DNA of 64,000 bases from the NCBI GenBank assembly GCA_021927905.1, contig BLLK01000047.1, positions 3,038,001 to 3,102,000 on the forward strand. Direction: 5' to 3'. The position numbers were made by a program, and so were the translations under genes. This document shows, piece by piece, positions 14,496-45,739 of the stretch; positions within the stretch are counted from its first letter, which is position 1, and every line of letters starts with the position of its first letter. The stretch comes from Chaetoceros tenuissimus. Lineage: Eukaryota; Bacillariophyta; Thalassiosirophyceae; Chaetocerotales; Chaetocerotaceae. Under the pieces are notes generated by a model, which was not told where the DNA came from, did no database searches, and saw only the letters and a list, made by a program, of their open reading frames with translations.

Positions 14496-15839
14496 CTAAT
14501 TACTACAAGATAGCAAAGAATCTGCCGGACTATTTGCCATCAAAGCTCTCGATTCGCATCCTTTTAGACAACCGCTTGGGAAGGAAGGATCTTCATTCGG
14601 TGGAAGAGGAGTCTCTCCGAAACTCCACTGGCATTCTTGCGTCGCAAAGTTTGGACTCACTGTTAATTCAAGTCCCAACTCTTCTTTGAAGAATTGCTGT
14701 GCTGGTATCTTACATTGGTGGAGGCAAAGTCCTTTACAACCAGACTCCTGAAGGAATTTACATTTTTCAACCACAAGTCCACCACGTTCTCCGTCTTTTC
14801 TTCTGTTTGGACGGCTCGGGCCAACCAAGAATCCAAAAAATGTCGGTGTTACAATAGTTGTCAGCCAAGGTGCATAAAACCATGGCCCAATCTGCTTGCC
14901 ATCATATTCAGTGCCTAGCTTTGGTACAATTCCACTCATAAAAATTCTGTAGAATGGAGGAAGTACTGGAGTCATGAGACCACCCAAAGTATCTTTGACC
15001 ATTTTGTGCTGTGCCTCAGCTGTCTGATTTGGTTGAAGCATAAATGATCTTCCTTGATCGAGGAGACCTTCAATAGCTGGCTTTGTTGAAATAACTCCTC
15101 CAGTGTTTTCCTCAACCAAATTGCGGAAAATTTTGAGTAGAAGTTTATCTAGAAGGTTGTCATTAAACTTTTTGTCCTCGAGTGTGCAGTCGTCGACAAG
15201 TTCATCACGACTATCTGTTTCGGATGCTCTAGAAGGCTGAATATCATTGTATTTCACATCTTGCACGTTTGGAAGATCTAGTCTAGCAATACGACTAGGA
15301 CTCAGAAATCCTGCTGTTGCTACATATGCTTCATAGTCTTTCTTCATCAGTTTTACAAGGAAATGGTACCTCCCAAATTCTAAAGCCTTTTTCTTCAACT
15401 CTAGAGTCTGTGTGATTAGTTTGTTATCCTTCAACTCGTCCAAAGCTTCAAGCTGCATGTCGATCTCGTCACATAATTTTACGATACTTTCTGGAGTTAC
15501 TTCGTCTACTTTCTTAGAGAAATAGTTGAATGCGAGACCGAGGGCATCACTTGCTTCCTTTAATTCAAGAAGAATTCTTTCACCAATTTCATTTTCTTCG
15601 AGAGTTGTCGTAGATGAGATTGGCGTTGACTTTGGAATTTCCTTCTTCTCTTCCACTACAATTTCACTTTCTACTGAAGTTGGTTTTGAGTCTTTCGGAT
15701 CACCGTTGATTGAATCCTGAGCAAACAATGTTGTAGCTCTCATACGATTATTAGAATAGGATGGCGAGAAAGCATCACATTCTCCAATTAGCAAGCACAT
15801 GCTTACTGCAATATTAAGGATATTTTTTCTGAACTTCAT
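14496..15839 (-). CDS. D27: DWARF27-like beta-carotene isomerase family protein, plastid-targeted
   Basis: Single exon, 447 residues. The C-terminal third matches the D27 domain (DUF4033): VEKCKFLQESGCKGLCLHQC, then KIPAQQFFKEELGLELTVSP, NFATQECQWSFG and PPNEDPSFPSGC. The Cys pattern is preserved. Plant D27 isomerises all-trans to 9-cis-beta-carotene at the start of strigolactone synthesis; diatom homologues may act more generally on carotenoids, so the substrate is inferred. The N-terminus has a signal peptide ending GECDA|FSPS, an ASAFAP-like plastid motif. The 200 or so residues between targeting region and D27 domain are rich in Glu/Lys with helical character and are longer than in plant D27. 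It lies next to the GGPP synthase, another step in the plastid isoprenoid route. Confidence 0.87.
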   Translation of the reverse strand: MKFRKNILNIAVSMCLLIGECDAFSPSYSNNRMRATTLFAQDSINGDPKDSKPTSVESEIVVEEKKEIPKSTPISSTTTLEENEIGERILLELKEASDALGLAFNYFSKKVDEVTPESIVKLCDEIDMQLEALDELKDNKLITQTLELKKKALEFGRYHFLVKLMKKDYEAYVATAGFLSPSRIARLDLPNVQDVKYNDIQPSRASETDSRDELVDDCTLEDKKFNDNLLDKLLLKIFRNLVEENTGGVISTKPAIEGLLDQGRSFMLQPNQTAEAQHKMVKDTLGGLMTPVLPPFYRIFMSGIVPKLGTEYDGKQIGPWFYAPWLTTIVTPTFFGFLVGPSRPNRRKDGERGGLVVEKCKFLQESGCKGLCLHQCKIPAQQFFKEELGLELTVSPNFATQECQWSFGETPLPPNEDPSFPSGCLKGCESRALMANSPADSLLSCSN

Positions 15840-16174: not shown

Positions 16175-18933
16175 TCACGTTTGTATTCTCTTGCCTTTTG
16201 GATCGTAAAGAGGAGAGAAGGAAACTTTGCTTGGGTACTTTCTATTCCCAATCTCTACAGACCTCTCGCCGCTTCTAAGGAAATCCAGGTTGATAATGTC
16301 TTTGGATTCAAGCATACATAATCCAACAGCACCTTTAAGAGTATGTCCATATGATGCGGATCTTACCTCCGCAATTCTTTCTCCATCGCGCCATAGAACT
16401 TCGCCGTGATGAAGGAGTGGCTCTGGATCTTCCAATAGAATTTGGGCCATCCTCTTTGTTAAACCTCCTCTTTCTTTTGCTTCTTGTTTTTGTCTCAAGA
16501 CATGTTCCATCCCAATGAAACCTTTATCCTTGCTGAAGTCACATGTAAAAGATAAACCTGCTTCAACGATTGTATCAGTGTTATCAATATCATGACCATA
16601 GTCTCTATACGCTTTCTCTAACCTCAGACTTCCAAGAGCACGTAGCCCGGCATGTTGTAGGTCAAACTCTTTTCCTTTTTCGACGATGACTTCATATATA
16701 TGAGCTGCAAACTCTGATGGAATAAATAGTTCGTACCCTAGTTCACCTACATATGTGATACGAGTACATCTTGCAATTCCATATCCTATATCAATTTCTC
16801 TAGAAGCTCGAAAAGGAAACATCTCATCATCCAGATTAGTTGATGTAATTGACTGAAGCAATTTTCTTGAGTTTGGTCCCTGTATATTTATCTGCGCAAA
16901 TGAATTTGTGACATCATTTACAAAAACATGGTGCTGATTGGTAAGATGCTTTCTCATATGAGTAAGGACGTGATTGTGCATAGTGTCTGTTGATACGACT
17001 AGGAAATCGCCATGATCAATTTTGGTAATGGTCACATCTGCCTCTAGGAATCCTTCCTTGTTCAAAAACTGAGTATAAGTTATTTTTCCAGAGTCGCCAT
17101 CAACATTAGCTGTTGATATGTAATTGAGAAAGGCACCAGCATCATCTCCTTTCACTGAAAATTTGCTCATGAAACTCATGTCGAATAAGGCCACATTATT
17201 CCTCGTCTGCAAATGTTCTTGCTGCCAATGTCTGAAGAAACTTTGCCTTCCAAAGTTTTCTTCAGCGATGTTTGGATTTAACTCATCGCCAAACCAAGAC
17301 GGACTTTCCCATCCACTCACATCACGAAAATAAGCATTTTGCTCTAGCATTTGTTGATGGAGAGGGGATCTTTTCACATTTCGACAACTGGATAGATTGT
17401 GGTCAGGATAGTGAACCTTGTATGTCTCTCCTAAGATCTCGCCTACTCTATCCGCTCTATACTTTGGATTTCGCTGATGTTTGTGAAATCTGTCAATATT
17501 AATTCCTGTTACATCGTAGCTGCTTGGAGGCTGTTTCTGGATTATCCACTGTGCGAGAAGATCTCCAACTCCACCACCAGTGAGAATGCCTATGCTATTC
17601 AGTCCAGCTGCTACAAAATATTGCTTGAGTTCTGGTGCTTCTCCTATGATTGGGCTCCCATCAGGTGTGAATGATTCAGGGCCACAGAAAAAATTCTTTG
17701 CACCAACTTGAAGAGTTGCTGGAACTCTATTCATAGCGTCTTCTAAGTACGGTGCCATTCTATCCCAATCTGCTTCGATTTCCCCAAAGCTAAAGTCAGA
17801 AGGTACCTCTTCTACCATCCAGGGTGCTCCCATTCTCTCAAACAATCCAAGCATGAGGCCACCTCCTTCTGGTCTAATGTAAACACATTTTGAGGAGTCT
17901 TCAACCACTGGCCACAATGGATCGACTTCGGGCATTTTATCAGTAATCAAATAATAATGTTCTGCTGCTTGATTAGGCACATTTATACCACCACACTTTT
18001 CAGCGAATTGCCTTGCCCACATACCGCAGCAATTGACAACAACATTGGCTTCAATTTCATCTCCATTTTCTAAAGTCACACCAGTTACTCTTGGTATTGT
18101 ATCTTTGATTATCTTTCCAACTGTTGAAGAGCATGGACCTAAATAGTCAGTACTCGTTATTCCATTTACTACAACATTTTCATAAATTTGAGCGCCGTAA
18201 ATTTTAGCACCTCGGGCCAGAGCCATAGTTACATCACTGGGATTTGCTCTACCGTCATCATTCACAAAAAATCCAGCAAGGACGTCATTGGTATCTACCA
18301 AAGGGAATTTATCTTTGACTTCGTGAGAATTCAATTCAGAAACGTCGACACCGCAAAATCTATTAAAAGCTGCTACTCTACGATAATATTCAAGTCTATG
18401 TTTGTCACAAGCTAGCTCAATAAAGCCAATTGGCATGAATCCTGTATCCATATTTGTTTCCTCTGGTAATATTTTGGAATATAATTCTTTTGTATACTTT
18501 CGCATAGATGTCGATGTCGCGGACAAACTCCCAAATGTATTGATGAGACCTAGTGAAAAATATTTCATGAGTGATTCAATCTGACTCCATTTTCCAAGAA
18601 ATCATGAAAGTCGTACTACTAACCTGCTGCGTGCCAAGTTGTGCCGGATGTGAGCTTATCTCTTTCCAACAAAACAACATCTTTAACTCCTTTCTTTGCT
18701 AGATGATATGCCACACTAGTTCCAATTACACCACCTCCAACAATGATAACATTGGCATGATGAGGAGGACTCTTCTTGACTTTCTCATCTGGAATGTAAG
18801 TAGTCTTTGCATGTTGTGGTGATGCTCCATTCACTCCATTGACGGTAGTGGAAAAAGCTCTACTAGCTGGATGAGTCAAGCTTCTACAAGAATAGGCAAA
18901 AAGATTCTTTGTTGTATCCAATAATGTTCGCAT
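16175..18933 (-). CDS. Mitochondrial sarcosine/dimethylglycine dehydrogenase family flavoprotein
   Basis: Exons 18933-18624 and 18549-16175, joined in phase as WHAAG|LINTFG across a 74-nt intron; 894 residues, usual for the family. It oxidatively demethylates dimethylglycine or sarcosine, passing the methyl group to tetrahydrofolate and electrons to ETF. The start at 18933 gives an Arg/Ser-rich mitochondrial presequence ([12 protein letters not shown]...SRAFSTT); an upstream ATG at 18972 is possible. The FAD motif [20 protein letters not shown] is followed by [10 protein letters not shown], whose His is the covalent FAD site in this family. The C-terminal half is a GcvT/aminomethyltransferase fold ([32 protein letters not shown]). 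The tail resembles sarcosine dehydrogenase and the FAD region dimethylglycine dehydrogenase, so the substrate is unresolved. Confidence 0.92.
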
Positions 18934-19366: not shown

Positions 19367-19439
19367 CACCGAATGTGGGGATCGAACCCACGACCACACG
19401 ATTAAGAGTCGTGCGCTCTACCGACTGAGCTAATTCGGC
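19367..19439 (-). tRNA. tRNA-Lys (CTT anticodon)
   Basis: 73-nt cloverleaf on the minus strand. Acceptor stem GCCGAAT pairs with ATTCGGT (one G.U pair) with discriminator G. The A-box-like TTAGCTCAGTCGG and B-box GGTTCGATCC are intact. The anticodon arm is CACGA-CTCTTAA-TCGTG, giving anticodon CTT, which reads AAG lysine codons. No intron, and CCA is not encoded, as expected for a nuclear gene. Confidence 0.97.
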
Positions 19440-23425: not shown

Positions 23426-23542
23426 TTTGAATTTTTCGATTCGATTTTTCCCTGGGAAGGGAAAGTGTTCTTCTCTTCCGCCAAACAAAAGCACTTCCCA
23501 TTTCATTTTTCTCTCCACCTAATAAATTGAAATGAACCAACA

Positions 23543-26500
23543 ATGGCCCATATTCTTGAACGATTAGTGGCCAAAGGGCGACGAGTCCAAAATATTCGAG
23601 ATCAACGTGAAGTGGCATTTGGTCTAGCGGACATTTCGACTCATCATGAGCTTCATCAACGCATGGTTCAAAAGGGAGGGATTAAAACGCTTCTACACCT
23701 TCTTACCTCTTCAAGGGACGTAGATGCTCAGCGCTTTGCAGTCTTGGCGATTGCAAATACATCTTGTGCGGAGAATTATCGAGTTGAAATTGCACAACAG
23801 GAAACTTGTATCGAAACATTGGTAAATTATATTCAAAATGATGAAATCGACTTAACGGTACGACAATATTGTGCCATGGCGTTGGGAAACCTTGCAGCTG
23901 ATGTTGAGAACCATGATGGTATTGCTTCGTTTGGAGGAGTTGAGGCTTCTATTTTGATTTTAAAGTCGGGTGCGAAAAATCAAGAGTTGGAATCTGGTCG
24001 ATATGCTTCGCTTGGTCTTTCAAATCTTGCAGTCGATCCAGAGCTTCGGAAACGAATTGTTCAAGGTGGAGCTATAGATCCCTTGGTTTTGATTGCGTGT
24101 GGAGATGATGTGGGAATACAGCGTCAAGCTTTAGCGGCACTTCGAGCTATTTGCATGACTGCCGAATATAGAGCACAAGTGATTGGGGCTGGAATACTGG
24201 ATCCTTTGGTGATTCTCTCTCGATCTAGTGAGACTCAGATCCTTCAGGAAGTTTCGGCTGCTCTTAATTGCTTGTCTTCGGTCGTTGAATGTAAACAGGA
24301 AGTATGTAGTCGAGCGTTGTTGACATTACTTTCGTTTTTACTCTCTGGAGATGAGATAGTGGAACGTCATGCATGCTGCGCTATCGCTAACCTTGTGGAA
24401 GAAAAAGAAATACATCAAAAGCTTTTGGAGGAAAATGGATTACCACCGATAGTTGCCATTTTCTCATCACAAGATTTGCATTCGAAAGGGGAAGCTGCAC
24501 GAGCCTTGGCAAACCTTTCGGCCAATGAAAATGTACAGTCATACTTGGTAGATACCGAAATCCTACAAGTTGTAGTGAAAGCATTGAATCACGAAGAGGT
24601 CAACTGCCAAAGGTTTGCAGCTCTATTTCTTGCAAATCTGGGAACTGTTGTCCCTTCACAGGTAAAAATAGTTCAAGAAGGAGCTTTACAGCCTCTTATT
24701 CGACTTGTTGGAAATGAAAGTGCTCAGATAGAAGCAAGGAGGTATGCTGGTTTAGCCCTCGCAAACTTGAGTGCAACAATCATTAATCACGAGATTATTG
24801 TACAAGAAGGTGCTCTTGAGGCACTTTTTACCCTTTCTAATTCACCAGATATCCTTGCACAGTACTACGTGGCTTGCACACTAGCAAATTTGGCAAGTAA
24901 TATCAAAGTTCATGAAAGAGTTGTCAATGAAGGAGGTATTCAACCTTTGATTGACCTTGCGTATAGCAGAGATCCTGATGTTCATTTGCACGCAAGCGCT
25001 GCTTTGCGAGGTTTAAGTGTTATAGGGGACTTTAAAGTCAAGATTGTGCAAGAGGGCGGTTTGGAACCGTTGCTTCGATTACTTCTTTCTAAAGATGTTG
25101 ACCTTTTACGTCAAGTTACCGCTTGTCTCTGTAACCTATCTCTTGGTGTTGAAAATAAGGTAGAACTGGGGAACTCTGGTCTAATCACACCCTTGATCAT
25201 GTTAATGCAACATGAAGATAAAGATATATCTAGTTACAGCTGTGCGTGCCTTGCAAACCTAGCTGAAATTACGTACAACCAAGAAATTATCGTAGCAGAG
25301 GGTGGAATACAACCATGTGTTGTAATGGTAAGATCAAAGTTTTTGGAGGTTCAAAGAGAAGCTGGTCGTCTTTTGGCGAATCTAGGTGCATGCGATGCAG
25401 AAATTGCATCCCAGACCATTATCGAGAATGGAGGCCACAATGTACTGATTTCATTTTTACTCTCTCGTGATGTTGCTTGTCAAAGAGTGGGAACATTTGG
25501 CATTGGTAATCTATGTACCCATGCTACTCATAGGGAGACATTGGCCATGGCAAGAGTTTTGGAACCTCTCTCTACATTGGTCCGTGATGTTCATGTAAAT
25601 ATTGAGATTAGACGCTTTGCAACCCTCGCCATTGTAAATCTATCCCATGAAGTTAAGAACCACGCAGCATTCATAAAGGATCGAGTGTTGAATGTAATCA
25701 TATCTTTGGCAAACTCGGAAAAGGAAGTGCTTCGCCAATATGCTGCTCTGGCTGTCGCAAACATTGCAAAAAATATGGACTTTCGAAAGGAAGTTACAGA
25801 AGGGGGTGGTCTAGATTCCGTTTTGTATCTTGCACGAATGTCAAGCAATGCAGTTAGGAAAGAAGTTTTAGGTGCAATATCTACTTTATCGTTTGTGGAA
25901 GAGAACCGTTTTCCTCTATGTACCAAAGGTGGATTAAATCCAATAATACAGGAGCTACAAGATGAAAATGGGAGTTATCAAACGTCACGCCTGGCCTCTT
26001 GTGCAGTCGCAAATTTATCTGAAAGGATAGGAAATATGTCAAAAATTGTAGACGCTGGAATCATTCATCTCCTAGTCAACAACTTACGAAGGAAACACCT
26101 TGAGGAGAATGACGAAACACTTCGTGCTTTGGGTAATCTTGCAACAAATCTTGACTATAGTACTCTGATCATGAAGGAAAGGGATTTACTTGATGTAACC
26201 TTCTCTACTCTACAACATGGTGGTGTGAATTCGAAACGTATGGCTGCGATGCTGTTGTCAAACTTGGCCGCCAACCTACAATATCATGACAACATTATGA
26301 ATACAGGCATTGTTGATATTATTGTTCGGGATTTTGAAATATCTCTAGATCCAAAAAGAAAATCTGATCACGAATATACAAGATTCTGTCTTTTACTGTT
26401 ATCCAATCTATGCACAAGGAAAGAAAATCATGAGATATTTTTATCCCAGACCTATGGTAAGTCAACCTTTAGATGTTTTTCTGTTATATCATGTGCTTTC

Positions 26501-29500
26501 TTAACAAAGCTCATGTCTTTTCAAGTTTTACTTTTGAAATTTGCAAAACATCGTGATATAAAATGTCGACACAATGCAATCATTGCACTTGGTAACTTGT
26601 GTTCGAATAGAGATAATCTCGAGAAATTTCAGGGTTCCGATATTTTAAACACGATGATTTCGTTTGCGTTTCCTCCAGTAAAGACTGAGCCTACGAATGC
26701 CCACTATCAAGCAATCGCTGGTATCAGGGGGCTTTCCGTCAAAGATCAGTATCGGACTCTATTGGTAAGGAAAGGATGCTGTGAACCCCTTGCTTTGGCT
26801 GCTGGTGATGAATGCATTGAAGGGATGGACATTGAAGTGCAACGGGAAGCAGCTGCTGCTTTGTTCAATTTGGCTCTATCTGAAGAAAATAGCCTTGAGA
26901 TGGCTCAATCTGGGATTGTACGCGCACTGATTAGCTTATTCAAGGTCAAGGATAGTGTAGCACAGGTCTTTGCGGTAGGGACTCTATCAAATCTTGTGGA
27001 AAAGACCTTTGAAGTACAGTCCAGATTACTTCAGGTCGGATTCCTCCAACCAATGGTAAAAATGGTAACAACTTTGAATCCTTCGAAAGAAACGTGCCGG
27101 GAAGTTTCACGATGTCTTGCTCTACTTGCCAATGAACCAAAGTCCCATTCTTGGTTGCTCCATGAAAGTGTTCTTCAATGTATTTTTGTACTCATTGAGC
27201 AGCAAGATAATCATGACTGCAACAAATTTGCGGTCCTTGCTTTAGCGAATCTCGCTTTGGAGATTACAGGTCATGCACAATTGGCAAAAGTTGACATTTT
27301 GCAAAAGTTTCAGCCTTTACTTTCGTTGAAGAAAAAAGAAATCAACCAGTGCATAGCTTTTGCTCTACACAATATTTGTAAAAATCCTAGCACGCATGAT
27401 ACGTGTATCAAGGGAGAAGTTCCTGGTCTATTGTGTCAGCTACTGCAGTTTGATGATGCCTTTGTTCATTTACATGGCTGCTTGGCCTTGCGTTATCTCT
27501 CAGTTTCGCAGAAAGCCTCTGCAAAATTTGTTGAGAATAAAGGTCTCCCTATATTGTTTTCTATATCTCAAAAGTCTGATATGGAATTGAAACTTGAAGT
27601 AGCCGCTTGTCTTCAAAATATTTCTCTTTCGGATGTGAACAAAGTGTGCATACTGAAACAACATGGGCTTCCAATTGTGACGGATTTGACTAGATCTGAA
27701 AACAACACTCTTGCTCATAATGCCTGTGGGATTATTGCAAACTTGGCTGAGATTCCTTCGAAGAGAAAAGAGATGATTACAGACGGTATACTCCATCATA
27801 TCAAATTCACACTTAGGTCAAATTGTGTAGAGGTTCAGAGGGAGTCTCTACGAGCATTGAGTAACCTTTCATCTGACTTTGAATGTATCATCTCGATCAC
27901 GGAATCCGGTCTCTTATCGCCTCTTGTAAAGTCATTGTCATCTCCAAATAGCCTGTGTAAAAGATTTTCGGCCATGGCTATCTCAAACTTGGCAACAAAC
28001 CGTAAAATTCACTCAAGATTGGTAGAAGAGGGCGCTATTGATCCTTTGATCTATATAGTTTCGCAAGACAAACTGGAAGATGAAGATGCACTGAAATTCG
28101 CATATATTGCACTGGTCAATTTGAGTTCGTCAGAATTCTACCATGATCTACTCATGGCATGCGATATCACTAGGTACTCCATGAAATTCACAAAATCTTG
28201 TGATGCTGACTTGAAGCAAAGTGCGGCTTTGTGTCTTGCCAATTTGGTTTCAAATAAGACTACACACAGTGTTCTTCACGAGGCTGGAGCTCTACCAACA
28301 TTGGAACGAATGTTGGAGAATTCAGAGAGATTCCTACATCTCTGCGCTGCGTCATTTCTGAGAGGAGCTTCTACCTCTGGGAAAATGAGAGCTTCAATAA
28401 TGAGACCAGAGATGCTTCGAATCCTGTTGCGACTGGCGAAATCAGATGATGTTGAATTACAGAGAGAAATCATTGCAACTCTGTGCAATTTGTCCTTGAC
28501 TGGATTGTTGGGAGAGAAACCCAATGCTTTTATGGATTCTCTCGGTTTACAGATATTATTGTCATTTCTTTGCAGTGCAGACTCTATATATCGCCTTTTC
28601 GGTGCAGTAGTGATTGGGAACATCGCATCGGATTCTTCATTGCATTCCAAGATTTTTAAATCTGGTACTGTGCCTCCTTTGATTCATACTACAAAGATTG
28701 CAGATAAGGAATCAAATAGATGTATAGCCTACACTCTTTGCAATTTATGTCTGGATGATCACTACAGGAATAAAATTATTCTCGAAGGGGGACTCTTTCC
28801 GATACTAACGCTGATGGGCTCAACTTCGGTTGAAGATAGAATATCCTCAATATCAACAGTCCGAGCTCTTTCTTCTAAGCCAGAGCTTCGACGATTCATT
28901 GTCGAAAATGGAGCTCTTGATTATGTTTTAGGCATGTGCAGAGATAGAGATAATCTGTTCTGTGTAGAGGAAGCATGTGAAGCACTCAGTTGGCTCAGTC
29001 TCAATGATGAAAACAAGATATCTATACTTTCTCATTCACAGGTTCAAAACCTCTTTGACTTACTAGAATTCATACCAATCAAAGAAGGAGTGACGATTCA
29101 AGTCCTAAGAATCTTGTCCAATTGTAGTGAATCTCAGATTTGCCATCCAAAGATTTTGTCTCATCTAAAGACGGAGGTTTTTGGAGCTCTATGTGATACA
29201 GAGTCAGTATCCATTCAGCAAGAGATTTCTAGATTTATGGTAAATCTCTTCTCTAACCAAAACAACCACGAGACTCTACTGGATATGATGTTTATGAAGC
29301 ATGTTTTTCTACTTTCGAAATCCAAAGAATCTGTATTACAAAAGAATGCAATGCTAATGACAATGAATTTGTCTACGAACCACAAAATTCATCAACAGCT
29401 TTCTAATTTCAAATGGGAAATTCTTGAATTCATCAGTGCATCATTGGAAACCAAAAACAACGTTGATGATATGACAGAGAAGCTACTCTGTTATTGCTGC

Positions 29501-32500
29501 TCTACTGTCGGTAATTTATTTCAAAACAGTGACGTATGCCAATTGTTGCTGAACAACAACATCCTTGAAAAGTTATTGAACTTGTTCAAGAGAGATGAAG
29601 AGGAGTTGAGTTTTTTGGTTACTTATGCGCTTCATCAAGCATTGAAAAAGTCACAAGAGATTGATCTACCAGCTTGGAACAGTTCTATTCCACTCTTGTT
29701 GCAATTTATTGAGAGGAACCCTTCAAATATTGTAGTTCATGCTCTTTGTGCATTGCGATACCTCAGCGAATGTCAGGAGAAAGCGAAGCTCATTATGAAA
29801 GAAAGTGGTTTGGCTGTATTGGAAGAGTGTTTGGAACAAGGAAATGTTGACATAGAGCGCGAAGTTACTGCAATTCTATGCCATCTTAGTTCATTCAAAG
29901 ATCTACAGGTGCCTGTTTCACGGTCAACCTTAATTGCAACAACATGTAAACTTTGCGACAATAAAGACTGTGAAACATCTCGTTTCGCTTTAGGAACTCT
30001 TGCGAATTGTATGGAGACATATGAGAGTCAGCAGCTTTTGTTAGCCTTTTCATCTGACATGATTTTGACCCTCATCAAACTCATTAAATCAAAGTTTTTG
30101 TCTACAAAGAGAGAAGCTTCTAGAGCGATATCAAATTGGTTATCATCTGATAAAGTCGTCAAGCTTTTTCTGAACAATGGAGGGTTAGATGCCATATCTT
30201 CAGCTCATCGAATAATAGACTATGAGCTTCAGTACAGCCTCAGTCTCTCACTGAGAAAACTTTCTTCATACAAACTGTCTCACGAAGAAATAATTTGTTC
30301 GAGAGGTCTCTCGTCGCTATTATTTCTCTGTCAGCTAAGCCACAATCGAGATGCTGTTCGTCATTCTGCATTGGGTCTCAAAAACTTATCCTCCAATGAG
30401 GATTTCAAGACAGTTTTGGTAAATGAAGGTGCACTGAATGTGTCTTCTTCACTGCTTACATCCAGTGACCTAATCACAACAATTGCAAGTGCTCAAACTC
30501 TAGAGAACTTGTCAATTCCACGAAACCTTAAGTTCATTATTTTCGAAAATGGAATGAACGATACAATCTGTGAGCAAATTCATAGAAATAGAGATGGAGA
30601 GTTTTTACGTCATGCTGCGGGTATCTTGGCAAATTTATCCACTCAGAAAGATATTCGAAAACAAATGTGGAAACAAGAAATTGTAGATGCCCTTGTTATT
30701 TTGAGTAAAGAACAAGACGACAACATTGATTACCAAGTTTCAAAGTGCATCTGCTTCATGTCTACTTCGCTTGAAGCGGCTAGTAATGACAAATGTAAAC
30801 TTGCCGAAACTATAATGTCGGTAGCTATTCAAATGGTTTCTTCTAGAAATACTCATATTGCAGACAACGCAGTGACATCGATTGGAAACTTTGCAAAGGA
30901 TGGAAAGAATCAACTTCATCTAGCCCAAATTAATGGATTTGACTGTATTGTGGACCTGGTGAAACAAGTTAAGGAAGACCCAAGTTCAAGCTTGAATTCC
31001 TGTTGGGCTCTTGGTCGACTTTTACTTTCAAAGGAATGTAGATATCTAAGTCAGAAAGGAAAATGTGTTTTTGGCTACCTTAATGACATTTGTCTGTTGA
31101 GATCCCAAGAAGACGACTGCGCCCATGTGTCGGCAGTGCTTTGTAATGCAGCTATCTCAAAGCCATGCCATGACTTGATTCAAAAGTCTGGTATTGTTTC
31201 AAATCTAGTGGAGACGCTCCAATCAACGAGTATCAAAACCGTCTTGTCTACTTTGAAAGCATTATGCAATCTTTGCACTACAGAAGCTATCCGTGATGAA
31301 ATTGTCGATGCAAATGGATTGAAAGTTCTTTTGAGATTGATTCATCGACATGAAAACTGTATTAGAGAACACGCAATCCTTCTTCTGGCAAATCTGACTA
31401 TTTCAGTTGAGAATTGCAAGAAGGTGGTAGCCTTGGGAGTATTGGCCCAGCTTTATGAGATTCTTGATCACACTTCATGCAGCAACATCAATGAAGCGTC
31501 GTCCACAATCATGTACAATATCTCTAGAGACATTTCTTGTCATGAATATCTTATTCATATCCCTGTTCTAAAATGCCTTCTTACTTTATGCGAAAACGAA
31601 GACAGTTCCTGCAGGGAATTTGCAATGAGAACAATGTGCAATCTTGCAGCTAACGACGACTGCAGAACAACTGTTCGAGAAGCTGGGTGTATAAAGAGAG
31701 CTATTCTCATGCTGAATGATTCGTGCTCCGATTGTAAAGTATTTGCCTCCATTTGCTTGGCAAATCTTGCAAATGAAAAGACAACACAGAGTCAAATTGT
31801 ACTACAAGGGGCATTGACAGCACTGGAACAACAACTAAGTTTTACAAATTACACTGGCTGCCGGAGTACCATCTTATGCCTTACAAACATTGCTGCCAAT
31901 TCTTCCAATCATAGTGCTTTCCTAAGCCATAATCTATTACAGAAATTGAGGGATTTGTGGAACAAGTGGAAACAAAGTGACATTAATACATATATTGCTT
32001 GCTGTTTTGTGAACCTTGTGGCAAACAGAGAACTGCTGGAAATTATTGGTAATCACAACGCATTTTCTGTTTTGAAAGAGTTTAGTCTTTCTCCTAGTAT
32101 GAATTGTCAATGTGCAGCTATGGCAGCGATTCGGCGTCTCACAGAAACAGATTCAAACAAAATCCAATTCATGGGAAACAAAAACCTGCTCAATGTCATG
32201 AATTCAAATGGGAAAATAAATCATTCTGATATGACCAATGAAATCGCCGGGTGCTTGCGAAATCTATGCCAGAGTGAAGAATATAGGCAAACAATTGCCG
32301 ATGTGTGCATTAAAACACTCAAGACCTTCCTTTCCAGCAATGACTTCAATACGCTTGAGAATACGATGGCAACTTTAGCCTATTTGGCAGAGTCAAAGCA
32401 CTGCGCAGTTTTGATCATTGAGAACATTTCTCTATCTTCTTTTGTGAGACTTTTTGAGGTTAAATCACTGCCAGTTACTCGAGAAACTTCACGAGCAATT

Positions 32501-34711
32501 TCGAATCTTCTTTCATATAGCAAGATTCATGCAGATTTTTCTCTGAATGGATTCCAAGATTTCTTGAATATTTGCTACAGATATACAGACGAAGAACTAT
32601 TTTACAGCATTTCTATAGCCTGTAGAAAAATTGTCATTTCTACTGAATCTCACGAAACTCTGGTAAAAAGTCTTGATGTCATGTCCAAACTATTGAAATC
32701 AAGAAATCTAGATACAATCAAGCATTGTTTGACAACTCTCAGAGATCTTAGCGACTGCGATGAAAACAAGCATAGAATTGCAACACACGAGACAACTACA
32801 ATCTTGATCAAGTTCTTGGAACATCACGACTTGGAGGTGAAGACAATTGTAACTGCAACTCTAAGTCATTTGGCATCAAATTATTCTCTGAAGAAGCTAA
32901 TCATGAGGAATGATGTCATTACAAAAACAGTTTCATCAATTCTCAACGCATCTCCAGAACTCTTGTTGCAACTTTCTGGTTTGATTATGAATCTCAGCGA
33001 AGAGGACTCCAATAGACTAGGTATGGTAAAAACGGGAGTGGTTCCAGCCCTTGCAGTGCTGTCCAGGGCATTAGATAACAGTATCTTGGATGTGAGTGTA
33101 TAGTTGTTATTACATTTGACTTGCCTATCACCTCTTCTTACCCATTTTCCTCCCTAGAATGTGACTCGTACATTTGCCAACTTGGGAAGTAACATCAAAG
33201 TTCAATTAGATATCCAGCAACAAGGGGGCCTAATTTGTCTCCTCAACTTGGCTTCATTAGCAGAAACTCCAGTCTGCAAACTTTATATTCCAATGGCAAT
33301 TCAGTTTCTACTAAGTAATAGTCATGTTCGCAAGATTGTCATGAAGGAAAAAGGGTTATCACAAATATCGTCCTTGCTCAATCAATCGTCGTTGGAGTAT
33401 AAACTTGGTGCAATGAGATCTTTGAAACTATTCTCTTTGGATGAAAATCATCGAGTTCATGTTGCTAAAACAGTTTTCTATAACATGGAGAAGCTGAGCT
33501 CGGTAACTGAGCTCGCTTTTCAGAGAGAATTAATTTGCACAGTCGCAAATCTAGCAGATTCATTGGACACACATGACCTTTTGATTGAAAAGAATTTTGT
33601 TGAAATAATTGCGAAGCCTATGCTCAATTCAAATGATATAGATGTGATTCGGGATCTGGCGAGATTCTGCTCGTCCATATCACTGAACATGAAAGCAAGA
33701 AGCCAAATCTTGTCATCCCAAATTTTATCAAAGATTATCAAATTGTGTAGACGTCACGATAAGGAAATACAAAGATATTCTTCCCTGACACTATGTAACT
33801 TGACTTTACTCGGTATGAAGAAACAGGTGATTGCCAAAGAAGAGGGGGTTCTCGGTGTCTTGTCATTTTTAGCGCAGTGTTCAGATGTATACGTGGAACG
33901 GTGTTCTTTGTTGTCCATAGCGGCTCTTTCATTTGGAACGCAACACGATTGTAAGCTACTCGTAGAGAATGCAGGTTTATTGACCACGATTTTGAATTCT
34001 ATTTCTTGCCCTGACTATAAAACAAAGCAATGTGCTTCATTGGCATTAAATGGATTATTACTTGACGTGGATCATCATGTAAAACGCAAGTTATGTAATA
34101 GGAGGGAAGACTTGAAGAAGCTTTTATCACAACTTGAAGTCCCTGATGACGAATGTAGACACAATGTTGTTTTTGCTCTTGGTTCATTGATTGAAGACAA
34201 GCAGACTAGAAGCCTATTGAGAGATCTAGGATTCATTTCATCCATTGTCAACGTTTTTCCAAAAGCTTCAGTAGACACCAAAAGGGGAATCGGATACATA
34301 CTCGCCATTTTATCAGAGGAAAAAGATACCCTTGTAGATTTAATAAAAAGCGGAGCAATTCAGTGTGTGGTAGATCTTGCTGCATTGGTAGATATTGAAG
34401 GGCAGCTTTATGGAGTCTTTTGTCTATTATTTCTATCATCCAACCCAAAGGTTCAAGAAGACGTTGTAAATAGGGGGGTGGTAAAGTCTCTTGTTAGCAT
34501 GATGGCCACAAAATCTGTGTGTCGTTATTACGCCTCGTTAGCTCTTCTAAAACTTGCTGAAAACGTTTCAACCCACCTGAAAATAGCTGAAGACGGAGGT
34601 CTTGAAGCCCTCCTTAAATTGGGTAAGGGAAATGAGCTAGACAGCGATGTGAAATACAAGACCAGCATGGTGGTCTCAAAGTTTGCAACAAACTTGTCCT
34701 CACGAAAGTAA
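23543..34711 (+). CDS. Giant armadillo-repeat protein (about 3,680 residues)
   Basis: Model: exons 23543-26456, 26526-33091, 33158-34711, giving 3,677 residues. Almost all of it is armadillo repeats of about 41 residues with the pattern GGIxPLxxLxxSxD..VQRxAxxALxNLS, for example EGGIQPLIDLAYSRDPDVHL and EGGLEPLLRLLLSKDVDLLR. At that period there is room for 85-90 repeats from the first residues to the last; the N-terminal third is closest to consensus and later repeats are diverged and Cys-rich. No signal peptide, membrane span or other domain is visible, so an intracellular scaffold is likely; relatives would be Vac8/ARO-type proteins. The 66-nt intron at 33092 is certain (N-VTRTFANLG continues the repeat). 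The 69-nt intron at 26457 is in frame and stopless, but its removal improves the repeat. Confidence 0.9.
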
Positions 34712-42580: not shown

Positions 42581-45500
42581 TTAGTTAGTTGGCGCCCCCT
42601 GCCTTACAAAAACTGTTTGTGCTCGCTCATTCAATTGAATCAACCCGTCGTTTTCAGCACTTCTCAAGGCCTCCAAAACGTCGTCAACACCAAACTCTTG
42701 GTTCATAAGCACTTCTTTGATCTGTCTAGTGATATCTGCTATAGCCATTCTCTTTCCTTTACGTTCATTCAGCAATTCTCTCACATTAATGTTCAACATT
42801 TGTTCAACTTCTTTCATTGCAGCACTGCGACCGGTAGAGATCATATCCATATCAATTCTCCCAGTTCGAGGATCTGTAGCCGCTGCTTGTGTTGCGACCT
42901 TCATTAATCTCACAGCTTCCTTTACATCTGCTCTTATGACTTCCTCACCTAGTCTCATCTTTGCGATTGCCTCTGATAAACGCACAAGACTTTCCAACTG
43001 TCTTGGCGTTGCTGAGATTGTTTTTGTTCCGCTGTTTCCACTGTTTTTGTATCCTTCTTTTCGCATGTCCAAGTAAGCATTGATGAGCTCTCTTGTTGCC
43101 AAATCGCTTAGTTCTGGGTGAACACACTCCCTAGCATATGCAATGTAATCGCGAAGAAGAGGCTGATCTAAAGGAGGTTGAACAACATTTGGAGTTTCAT
43201 AGTATAAGCCGACCAAGTGCTGTGCTAGTTTGCGATCACTTTCAGTGTTTGGTGCATCTAGAATAAGGTAGATTAGATCGAAACGACTCAAAAGAGTAGG
43301 AGGTAACTTGATATTTTCAACGACACTCATGTTTGGATTGTATCTCGATTCCACAGGATTCGCAGAAGCTAAAATGGAAGTTCTCGCATTTAGGGTGGCA
43401 ATGATACCTGCCTTCGCGATACTAACTGTCTGTTGTTCCATAGCTTCGTGAAGAATAGCTCTGGTAGTATCCGACATTTTGTCGAATTCATCAATACAGC
43501 AAATTCCCAAGTCTGACAAAACCAATGCTCCAGATTCTAGCACTAATTCTCTTGTCTCTGGATCACGGACAATACTAGCTGTCAACCCCACAGCAGAAGA
43601 ACCTTTACCAGATGTATATACTCCACGAGGAGAAAGCTTGTGAACATAGCTCAGTAATTGCGACTTGGATGTTCCTGGGTCTCCACACAGTAGGATATTA
43701 ATGTCTCCTCTTTTGTTTAACTTTGTTGAGGCAGATTCTTCATCGTAGTTTTCATCGTCTTCATCTTCAAAATCGCTTTCCTCATCTTGCTTTCGTTTCT
43801 TATCTGCAGTACCTTTTTTCACTCTCCTAGAGTTACCACCAAAGAGCATGCAAAGAACCCCTTTCTTCACATCATCAAGTTCCCAAATACTTGGTGCAAG
43901 ACTTTGAACTAATTTCTGGTAGATATCAGGAGACTTGGAAAGAGTCAATAATTCTTCTATTCTCTGGGGACTCAATTTACCACCAACACTCTCAACCATG
44001 CCTTTACCTCTATTTACTTCGTTATCTTCCTCTCCACCCTTCTTCTTTGAGCTAAGATTATTTGATGCACCATGTCCTTTGTCTCCACTCACTCTACGAA
44101 AATGTACAACATCAACATAGGTTCTATATACACTCTTGACCCTTGAAATCTTTGGGTTGACTCTTCTTGGCTGCGCACGGAAGACTCCAGTCACTTCAAT
44201 ACGATCTCCAGGTCTAACTGCATCAACCAAGTCATCATATGCAAATAAAACAATCGATGCAGGAGTCTCTCCTGCAGGTACTTCATTAGGTGTTTCCTGA
44301 ATTCTAACCATTTGCTTGTCTGCGAAAATGCATCGATTATGAACAAGCTCAAAACCTTGCTTAATGTTGCATTCAGGACAAACTGTCGGTTCAGAAATAC
44401 GTCCACGCTCCAGAGTAATCGCTTCTGTATGTGCACAAATGGTACATTGAAAATGAGCAACTTTCAAATCAGGAATGATTGGAGAAGTTCTGACAACCAT
44501 TCCACGGATGGATAGTAGATTATCCATAGAATGTGGATCAAGAGATCTCATATGTGCCAACGATTTGAGATGGAATGGTCTAACTTGCACTTTTGGAAGC
44601 GGGACGTCTTGAGGATGGAGAGTAGCATATGCATCTTCATCTGAAGATTCTTCCATTTCTTCAAGAAGTTCAGCGTAAATACTTTCCATTTCACGGCCAA
44701 CAATTAAATCCATGAGCGGAATTACTTCGGCAGGATACGAAATCAATTGATGGTACAGTCTCTGACAGGCTGGAGAATGGAAAAAGAGATGACTAGAATC
44801 AAGATCAAAGGCAACTGCACCATCAGTATTTTCGGTAGAAGAAGTCATTGCATCACCATCTCCAGCAGAGGTCGACTTTGAATTTCTTTGAAAAAGAATA
44901 TCACGAATTTTATCAAGATAAATAAAGCTCTTTTCTTCATTTGAATCAACTGAATCCAAAGATTCAAAACTATCATCATCGGAGTCATCATCCGGATCAC
45001 TACCGCCTCCATCTGCACCAGAAGCCTGTCTACGCTCTCTCCTTTTTTTCTTTTGTTCTTTTTCATAAGCCCTCTCCGACTCTTCCACTGAGATAAAGTT
45101 TTGTAAAAATTCTTTGAATGCAGCCGCGGCAGTAGCAACTACAATGTTAGTACCTCTAATAAAATTCTGTTCGAGTTCCATATCATCTTCGTCATTTTCT
45201 CTCATAGCGGCTGTAGCAGCTCTATTCTCACGGCCTTGATTTTGGTTTGAATCTTCTAGACGACTGTCTAAATCGCTACCATAGTCTCCAACAGCTCGAC
45301 TAGGAGAAACATTCAACACACTTCCTCCTAAACTTCCAAAGCCAGTCATTGGAGTTGAAACAGAAACATTGTCGGTCAAATTAGACAATGGATGATTAGC
45401 AGGTGTACTAGGTACCACCTCATTGTCCTCATTTTGATTCATATTATCTTCTTCATCCGATGATTCGGCCAATTGAAATCTTGCAGCTGGAGTGGAAGGT

Positions 45501-45739
45501 ATGACACTGTTATTATCGACATTTCCCGAACTTCTACGAGATGTATTTGTCATTGGCGTAGCAGGGATTGAAGATGTGTCATTGTCATCATTGTTTGTAC
45601 TTGCTGATAATCTTTGAGGAGTCGAAGGTGTGGGTGGAACAGATGGTTCTTGTTCTTCATCATTGTTGAGATCTCCACCTGTATCTTCTTGTTGTAATGT
45701 GTTGTCCAACATCATTTCATCATCTGATGAGTCAGCCAT
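42581..45739 (-). CDS. MCM4: DNA replication licensing factor MCM4
   Basis: Single exon, 1,052 residues. MCM4 is a subunit of the MCM2-7 replicative helicase. The AAA+ core shows Walker A GDPGTSKSQLL, Walker B CCIDEFDKM and the arginine finger LLSRFDLIY. The zinc finger is CTIC...CPEC. Assignment to MCM4 rests on VHNRCIFADKQMVRIQETPN and PAGETPASI. The N-terminal 200 residues are acidic, Ser-rich and disordered with about five (V/I)P(S/A)TP or PTPSTP motifs, plausible CDK/DDK sites as in other MCM4 tails. An acidic insert (DEESDFEDEDDENYDEES) sits just before the Walker A strand. It is longer than animal MCM4 (about 860), mainly in the N-terminus and this insert. Confidence 0.97.
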   Translation of the reverse strand: MADSSDDEMMLDNTLQQEDTGGDLNNDEEQEPSVPPTPSTPQRLSASTNNDDNDTSSIPATPMTNTSRRSSGNVDNNSVIPSTPAARFQLAESSDEEDNMNQNEDNEVVPSTPANHPLSNLTDNVSVSTPMTGFGSLGGSVLNVSPSRAVGDYGSDLDSRLEDSNQNQGRENRAATAAMRENDEDDMELEQNFIRGTNIVVATAAAAFKEFLQNFISVEESERAYEKEQKKKRRERRQASGADGGGSDPDDDSDDDSFESLDSVDSNEEKSFIYLDKIRDILFQRNSKSTSAGDGDAMTSSTENTDGAVAFDLDSSHLFFHSPACQRLYHQLISYPAEVIPLMDLIVGREMESIYAELLEEMEESSDEDAYATLHPQDVPLPKVQVRPFHLKSLAHMRSLDPHSMDNLLSIRGMVVRTSPIIPDLKVAHFQCTICAHTEAITLERGRISEPTVCPECNIKQGFELVHNRCIFADKQMVRIQETPNEVPAGETPASIVLFAYDDLVDAVRPGDRIEVTGVFRAQPRRVNPKISRVKSVYRTYVDVVHFRRVSGDKGHGASNNLSSKKKGGEEDNEVNRGKGMVESVGGKLSPQRIEELLTLSKSPDIYQKLVQSLAPSIWELDDVKKGVLCMLFGGNSRRVKKGTADKKRKQDEESDFEDEDDENYDEESASTKLNKRGDINILLCGDPGTSKSQLLSYVHKLSPRGVYTSGKGSSAVGLTASIVRDPETRELVLESGALVLSDLGICCIDEFDKMSDTTRAILHEAMEQQTVSIAKAGIIATLNARTSILASANPVESRYNPNMSVVENIKLPPTLLSRFDLIYLILDAPNTESDRKLAQHLVGLYYETPNVVQPPLDQPLLRDYIAYARECVHPELSDLATRELINAYLDMRKEGYKNSGNSGTKTISATPRQLESLVRLSEAIAKMRLGEEVIRADVKEAVRLMKVATQAAATDPRTGRIDMDMISTGRSAAMKEVEQMLNINVRELLNERKGKRMAIADITRQIKEVLMNQEFGVDDVLEALRSAENDGLIQLNERAQTVFVRQGAPTN

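Follow-up and report, generated by a model that had tools for sequence, protein, structure and literature searches.

At positions 23543-34711 on the + strand of the window, which is the whole stretch of 64,000 nucleotides that was analysed, we infer one gene of three exons and two introns from splice signals, reading frame and repeat spacing. Its predicted spliced product is a protein of 3,677 aa (407 kDa, pI 6.3), and the open frames behind it run from 23543 to 33103 (3,186 aa) and then from 33161 to 34711. Exon 1 (23543-26456), delimited by its ORF, its translation and its Pfam matches to Arm and ARMC5-type models, reaches from Met1 to about residue 971 and holds armadillo (ARM) units 1-23 together with the first part of unit 24. 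The putative intron 1 (26457-26525; 69 nt, GTAAGT...TTTTCAAG) is recognised by its splice signals and by repeat spacing, and because it is in frame and without a stop, the ORF reads through it. If retained, it would break up one ARM unit with 23 non-ARM residues (GKSTFRCFSVISCAFLTKLMSFQ), and excising it brings back the ARM spacing of about 41 residues. Exon 2 (26526-33091) carries units 24 to about 76 and is followed by the putative intron 2 (33092-33157; 66 nt, GTGAGT...CCTCCCTAG, ending CCTAG), which has splice signals and contains stops. Exon 3 (33158-34711) encodes units about 76 to 88 and the stop codon; an AlphaFold model covers all of its 517 residues, and the solenoid extends to the final few residues of the protein (...ATNLSSRK). 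An earlier note on this DNA had described a nearly uninterrupted frame of 11 kb and a product of about 3,680 residues, and both descriptions hold, the 66-nt intron 2 being the only break in the frame that was read.

Several features mark this frame as coding. An in-frame TGA lies at 23528, five codons 5' of the ATG, the probability of a 3,186-codon ORF by chance is extremely small (log10 P about -92), and the remaining two frames of the same strand contain 239 and 258 stops. In addition, codon usage resembles that of eight genes nearby (correlation 0.91), so the frame is coding by composition. Several separate transcripts from this locus are unlikely, given a stop-free frame of 9.5 kb and two short standard introns. 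Composition also shifts along the gene: first-position GC (GC1) is 0.60 in codons 1-610 and 0.42-0.48 beginning with codon 1221, the share of AGA among Arg codons rises from 18% ahead of residue 1200 to 48% beyond it, and the codon-usage correlation with the neighbours climbs from 0.62 to about 0.9.

The genes on either side are housekeeping genes and give no functional hint; by eye, the upstream neighbour looks like a processing-peptidase-like protease, and the others are a convergent downstream gene of the cysteinyl-tRNA-synthetase type and an MCM helicase of 1,052 aa (42581-45739, - strand). Elsewhere in the window, all on the - strand, are a tRNA-Lys (CTT) at 19367-19439, a 797-aa ORF (16175-18568) that by eye resembles a dimethylglycine/sarcosine dehydrogenase-type oxidase whose C-terminal half is GcvT-like, and, at 14496-15839, a putative protein targeted to the plastid, whose start is ASAFAP-like (...CDAFSPS) and which may resemble the carotenoid isomerase D27. 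The ARM gene is single copy in the genome (41.03 Mb, 68 contigs). The only other genomic matches to its sequence are several ARM frames, a few with about 540 aa, an importin-alpha-like size, and one with 556 aa; some further short frames, small in number, match the Arm and ARMC5-type models. Many silicon transporters (PF03842, best 2.3e-211) are encoded in the genome and mark it as that of a diatom; among them are three copies head to tail at G000:C17:442278-446357 (-) that form a fused or tandem array, with two or more copies within one open frame of 1,459 aa and the third interrupted by one TGA and one TAG.

The protein consists of ARM repeats from end to end. Pfam Arm (PF00514) matches it with an E-value of 2.7e-103 and the ARMC5-type ARM model (PF24768) with 1.1e-114 when its 18 stretches are added up; further matches come from PUB-type ARM and HEAT models. 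No non-repeat domain rises above the Pfam cut-off anywhere along its length, where only families of the ARM/HEAT type appear, and a search of NCBIfam gave no meaningful match. A profile that had been trained on units of this same protein, with shuffled proteins as background, placed 83 ARM units, 78 of which score above the 99th percentile of the shuffles. Four extra units fill three gaps in the profile (residues ~1798-1841, 1924-1972 and 2431-2516), where helices are visible in the AlphaFold model, and one further unit lies at the C-terminus in the model of the last 517 residues, which brings the total to 88 consecutive units without a gap. Their spacing is 39-49 residues (mean 41.8, median 41). 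The first unit, from residue 1, is cut short by the start codon and the last stops a few residues before the stop codon; therefore the protein is ARM throughout. The units show the marks of ARM proteins, namely tandem arrangement at about 41 residues, H1-H2-H3 helices and an ALxNL core. A count of 85-90 repeats, and an array of armadillo repeats and nothing else, had been proposed from the letters, with profile counting named as the check; the profile, Pfam and the AlphaFold models agree with both. ARM proteins of known function have about 6-20 repeats, and the giant exceeds the familiar armadillo proteins about sevenfold in length.

Structure prediction, likewise proposed earlier as a check, gives the same picture in both stretches that were modelled. 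Residues 1700-2620, the region where the profile skipped four units, are predicted by AlphaFold2 as continuous ARM helices with a mean pLDDT of 82, and the last 517 residues likewise with a pLDDT of 88; the input alignment consisted of shifted copies of the same protein only, which is weaker and less independent than an alignment of orthologs. Compared with solved structures, the model of the mid-region superposes on Nvj1-bound Vac8 (5xjg_A) over 462 residues at 3.0 Å (Z 27.8, ~19% identity), on importin-alpha5 over 392 residues with the highest Z (31.9), and on designed peptide-binding ARM proteins with Z 26-30. In sequence, a designed ARM protein and Vac8 come closest among the solved structures, Vac8 being the best natural match (E 3.5e-33). 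A fold search of BFVD returned only distant alpha-solenoids and one pithovirus importin-like protein. We take these structural matches to reflect a canonical ARM superhelix in the models and not family membership, and a common ARM fold by itself does not show a binding function.

How such an array may have grown can be read from its internal similarities, which were assessed by comparing unit with unit against permuted or shuffled unit orders. Neighbouring units are only 15% identical. Within units 1-24, similarity is conspicuously high at a lag of seven units (z 6.0), and diagonal runs at lag 7 lie well over the 95% level of permuted unit orders. Block alignment divides the array after unit 11 into four adjacent blocks, all on the + strand: A1 (24902-27385; units 12-30, residues 454-1258), which opens with an ALRGLS unit and is split by intron 1; A2 (27386-29650; units 31-48, residues 1259-2013); A3 (29651-32026; units 49-67, residues 2014-2805); and A4 (32027-34708; units 68-88, residues 2806-3677), split by intron 2. 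They are preceded by A0 (23543-24901; units 1-11), which carries the seven-unit period together with the units up to 24. The opening unit of each of A1-A4 resembles 'ALRxLS', and units resembling 'CLxNLS' and 'LANLAE' come next. Against shuffled unit order, in-register similarity reaches z 3.7-3.9 for A1-A2, 2.5-2.9 for A2-A3 and 3.6-4.1 for A3-A4, and it is no greater than for shuffled order between A1 and A4 or between A2 and A4. A block period is thus supported for neighbouring blocks and, weakly, for A1-A3, and not for every pair. This pattern fits serial tandem duplication of multi-repeat blocks followed by old divergence, a reading that is statistical, at about 20% identity. What appears to be new here is that the solenoid would have grown by seven-unit blocks at the N-terminus and then by four adjacent blocks of 18-21 units.

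Several known ARM families share features with the giant. CSI1/POM2 (cellulose synthase interactive 1) has 2,150 aa with multiple ARM repeats plus a C2 domain (PMC4877384); it too is a very large ARM-based scaffold, one that links the cytoskeleton with a wall-synthesis machine, but the giant is 1.7 times longer and ARM-only, with no Pfam match to C2 and a C-terminus modelled as ARM helices. The ARM region of ARMC5 accounts for the 18 matching stretches of PF24768 (383 bits in total), but the match is distributed over the repeats of a far longer protein, and the C-terminal BTB domain of ARMC5 has no Pfam match in either exon part, the C-terminal model being all ARM. KAP3 (PF05804) gives partial matches in place of its full-length domain, the best covering 273-541 of 708 positions, with 43 bits in all.

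The comparisons with Vac8, importin-alpha and ODAD2/ARMC4 bear directly on function. Yeast vacuolar protein 8 has nine ARM repeats (PMC11514114), and its ARM fold, its Asn ladder, its place as the best natural sequence match and one of the tightest superpositions might point to a Vac8-type adaptor on the vacuole or other endomembranes, acting in organelle contact or autophagy. We regard this as improbable, since the signal for Vac8-type myristoylation and palmitoylation is absent: the protein starts MAHILERLVAKGRR, and in this start (MAHILERL) there is no Gly2 for N-myristoylation and there are no N-terminal cysteines. Moreover, Vac8 has about 9-12 repeats in ~580 residues, whereas the giant has 88 in 3,677 aa, seven to ten times as many, and shows block duplications; the closeness of the two may reflect only that both sit near the ARM consensus. 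An origin from importin-alpha, with a role in nuclear transport or NLS binding, appears extremely unlikely. The shared ARM superhelix and Asn ladder, the top Z of importin-alpha5 and the importin-alpha-like size (about 540 aa) of the frames that hold the genome's next nearest ARM proteins all speak for it, but the importin WxxxN motif, whose Trp sits four residues ahead of the ladder Asn, occurs in 1 of 88 units, there is no Pfam match to the IBB domain, with the first ARM unit already at residue 1, and the giant has about nine times the repeats. The giant thus lacks features that define Vac8 (acylation), importin-alpha (WxxxN and IBB), ARMC5 (BTB), KAP3 (a full KAP domain) and CSI1 (C2).

Centric diatoms make flagellated sperm, and the top Foldseek E-value for the mid-region model belongs to ODAD2/ARMC4 in doublet microtubules (9cpc_1A, 8j07_m7), both entries also being returned by the sequence search of solved structures. 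The giant might accordingly be read as a counterpart of ODAD2/ARMC4, an axonemal or docking protein of the male-gamete flagellum that runs along microtubules. We consider this unlikely: by Z-score, Vac8, importin-alpha and designed ARM proteins fit better, and more tightly, than 9cpc_1A, whose superposition is looser (Z 25.2, rmsd 7.9 Å), ODAD2/ARMC4 has about 1,040 aa and a much shorter ARM region, the similarity in sequence and structure runs via the ARM repeats only, and any consensus-like ARM protein scores about as well. Another reading, in which the locus is a row of separate ARM genes or an array of repeats in decay with no single translated product, would agree with a C-terminal part that deviates more from the ARM consensus, but the 9.56-kb stop-free frame with its minute chance probability, the coding-like codon usage, the standard splice signals of both short introns and the well-formed C-terminal solenoid make it very unlikely.

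A single giant ARM scaffold that binds extended partner segments is the reading we prefer, at a probability of roughly 60%; our confidence in any named process is much lower. Of the 88 units, 54 retain the ladder asparagine of ARM helix 3, with 22/29 in the N-terminal, 19/29 in the middle and 13/30 in the C-terminal third; the consensus score of the units drops in parallel. The Asn ladder grips the backbone of extended peptides, as is well known from importin-alpha, beta-catenin and designed ARM proteins, and therefore a soluble peptide-binding scaffold is judged the likeliest function. No targeting signal was seen in the protein, and a role as a large intracellular scaffold, as suggested from the letters alone, is a reasonable inference. 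By computation, the single-copy gene encodes a 407-kDa protein that forms one continuous ARM alpha-solenoid of 88 repeats; we propose that it is probably a soluble intracellular scaffold, whose groove, with the Asn ladder along it, may bind extended partner segments in the manner of Vac8, beta-catenin and importin-alpha. Because the ladder thins towards the C-terminus, a peptide groove over the full length is unsupported. The likeliest peptide-binding part would be the N-terminal third, which is nearest to the ARM consensus and has the most ladder Asn, and the C-terminal third would more likely be structural, with the parts beyond the N-terminal groove perhaps providing length, spacing or protein-protein contact. 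The joint thinning of consensus and ladder Asn looks as if the N-terminal third were more strongly constrained.

The reach of such a solenoid can be estimated. An ARM solenoid rises by ~0.9-1 nm per repeat, as in beta-catenin with ~11 nm for 12 repeats, and 88 repeats would therefore span ~80-90 nm at most. The hundreds of nanometres suggested in the earlier note are thus too long, unless the protein polymerises. Over these 80-90 nm, the solenoid might either carry several partners or clamp one long disordered partner. A bolder version, which we offer only tentatively and think doubtful, would see a lineage-specific ARM-only giant, grown by seven-unit and then ~19-unit blocks, that serves diatom cells, over its 80-90 nm, as a molecular ruler or as a rail for several partners, and for which no counterpart of such size has been described.

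The view that no named family has this size and composition agrees with Pfam, the PDB and open-access papers, within which none was found. Among the open-access papers searched, none describes a giant ARM protein from diatoms, oomycetes or other protists; the word armadillo is absent from the main text of both an oomycete flagellar proteome paper (PMC3471859) and a C. tenuissimus virus transcriptome paper (PMC12305248). A tblastn search of the giant against viral contigs and GTDB genomes, collections not meant for eukaryotes, returned no relatives, an outcome of little weight. Unnamed orthologs, among them annotated relatives from other stramenopiles, are likely, and similar giants may already be in databases as hypothetical proteins.

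An ARM-only chain of 88 units would rank among the longest alpha-solenoids of its type, and from its blocks one can read how such a solenoid grows. Provided that the gene is expressed and conserved, it would be one identified large scaffold gene of a diatom, and its loss could be put to a direct test.
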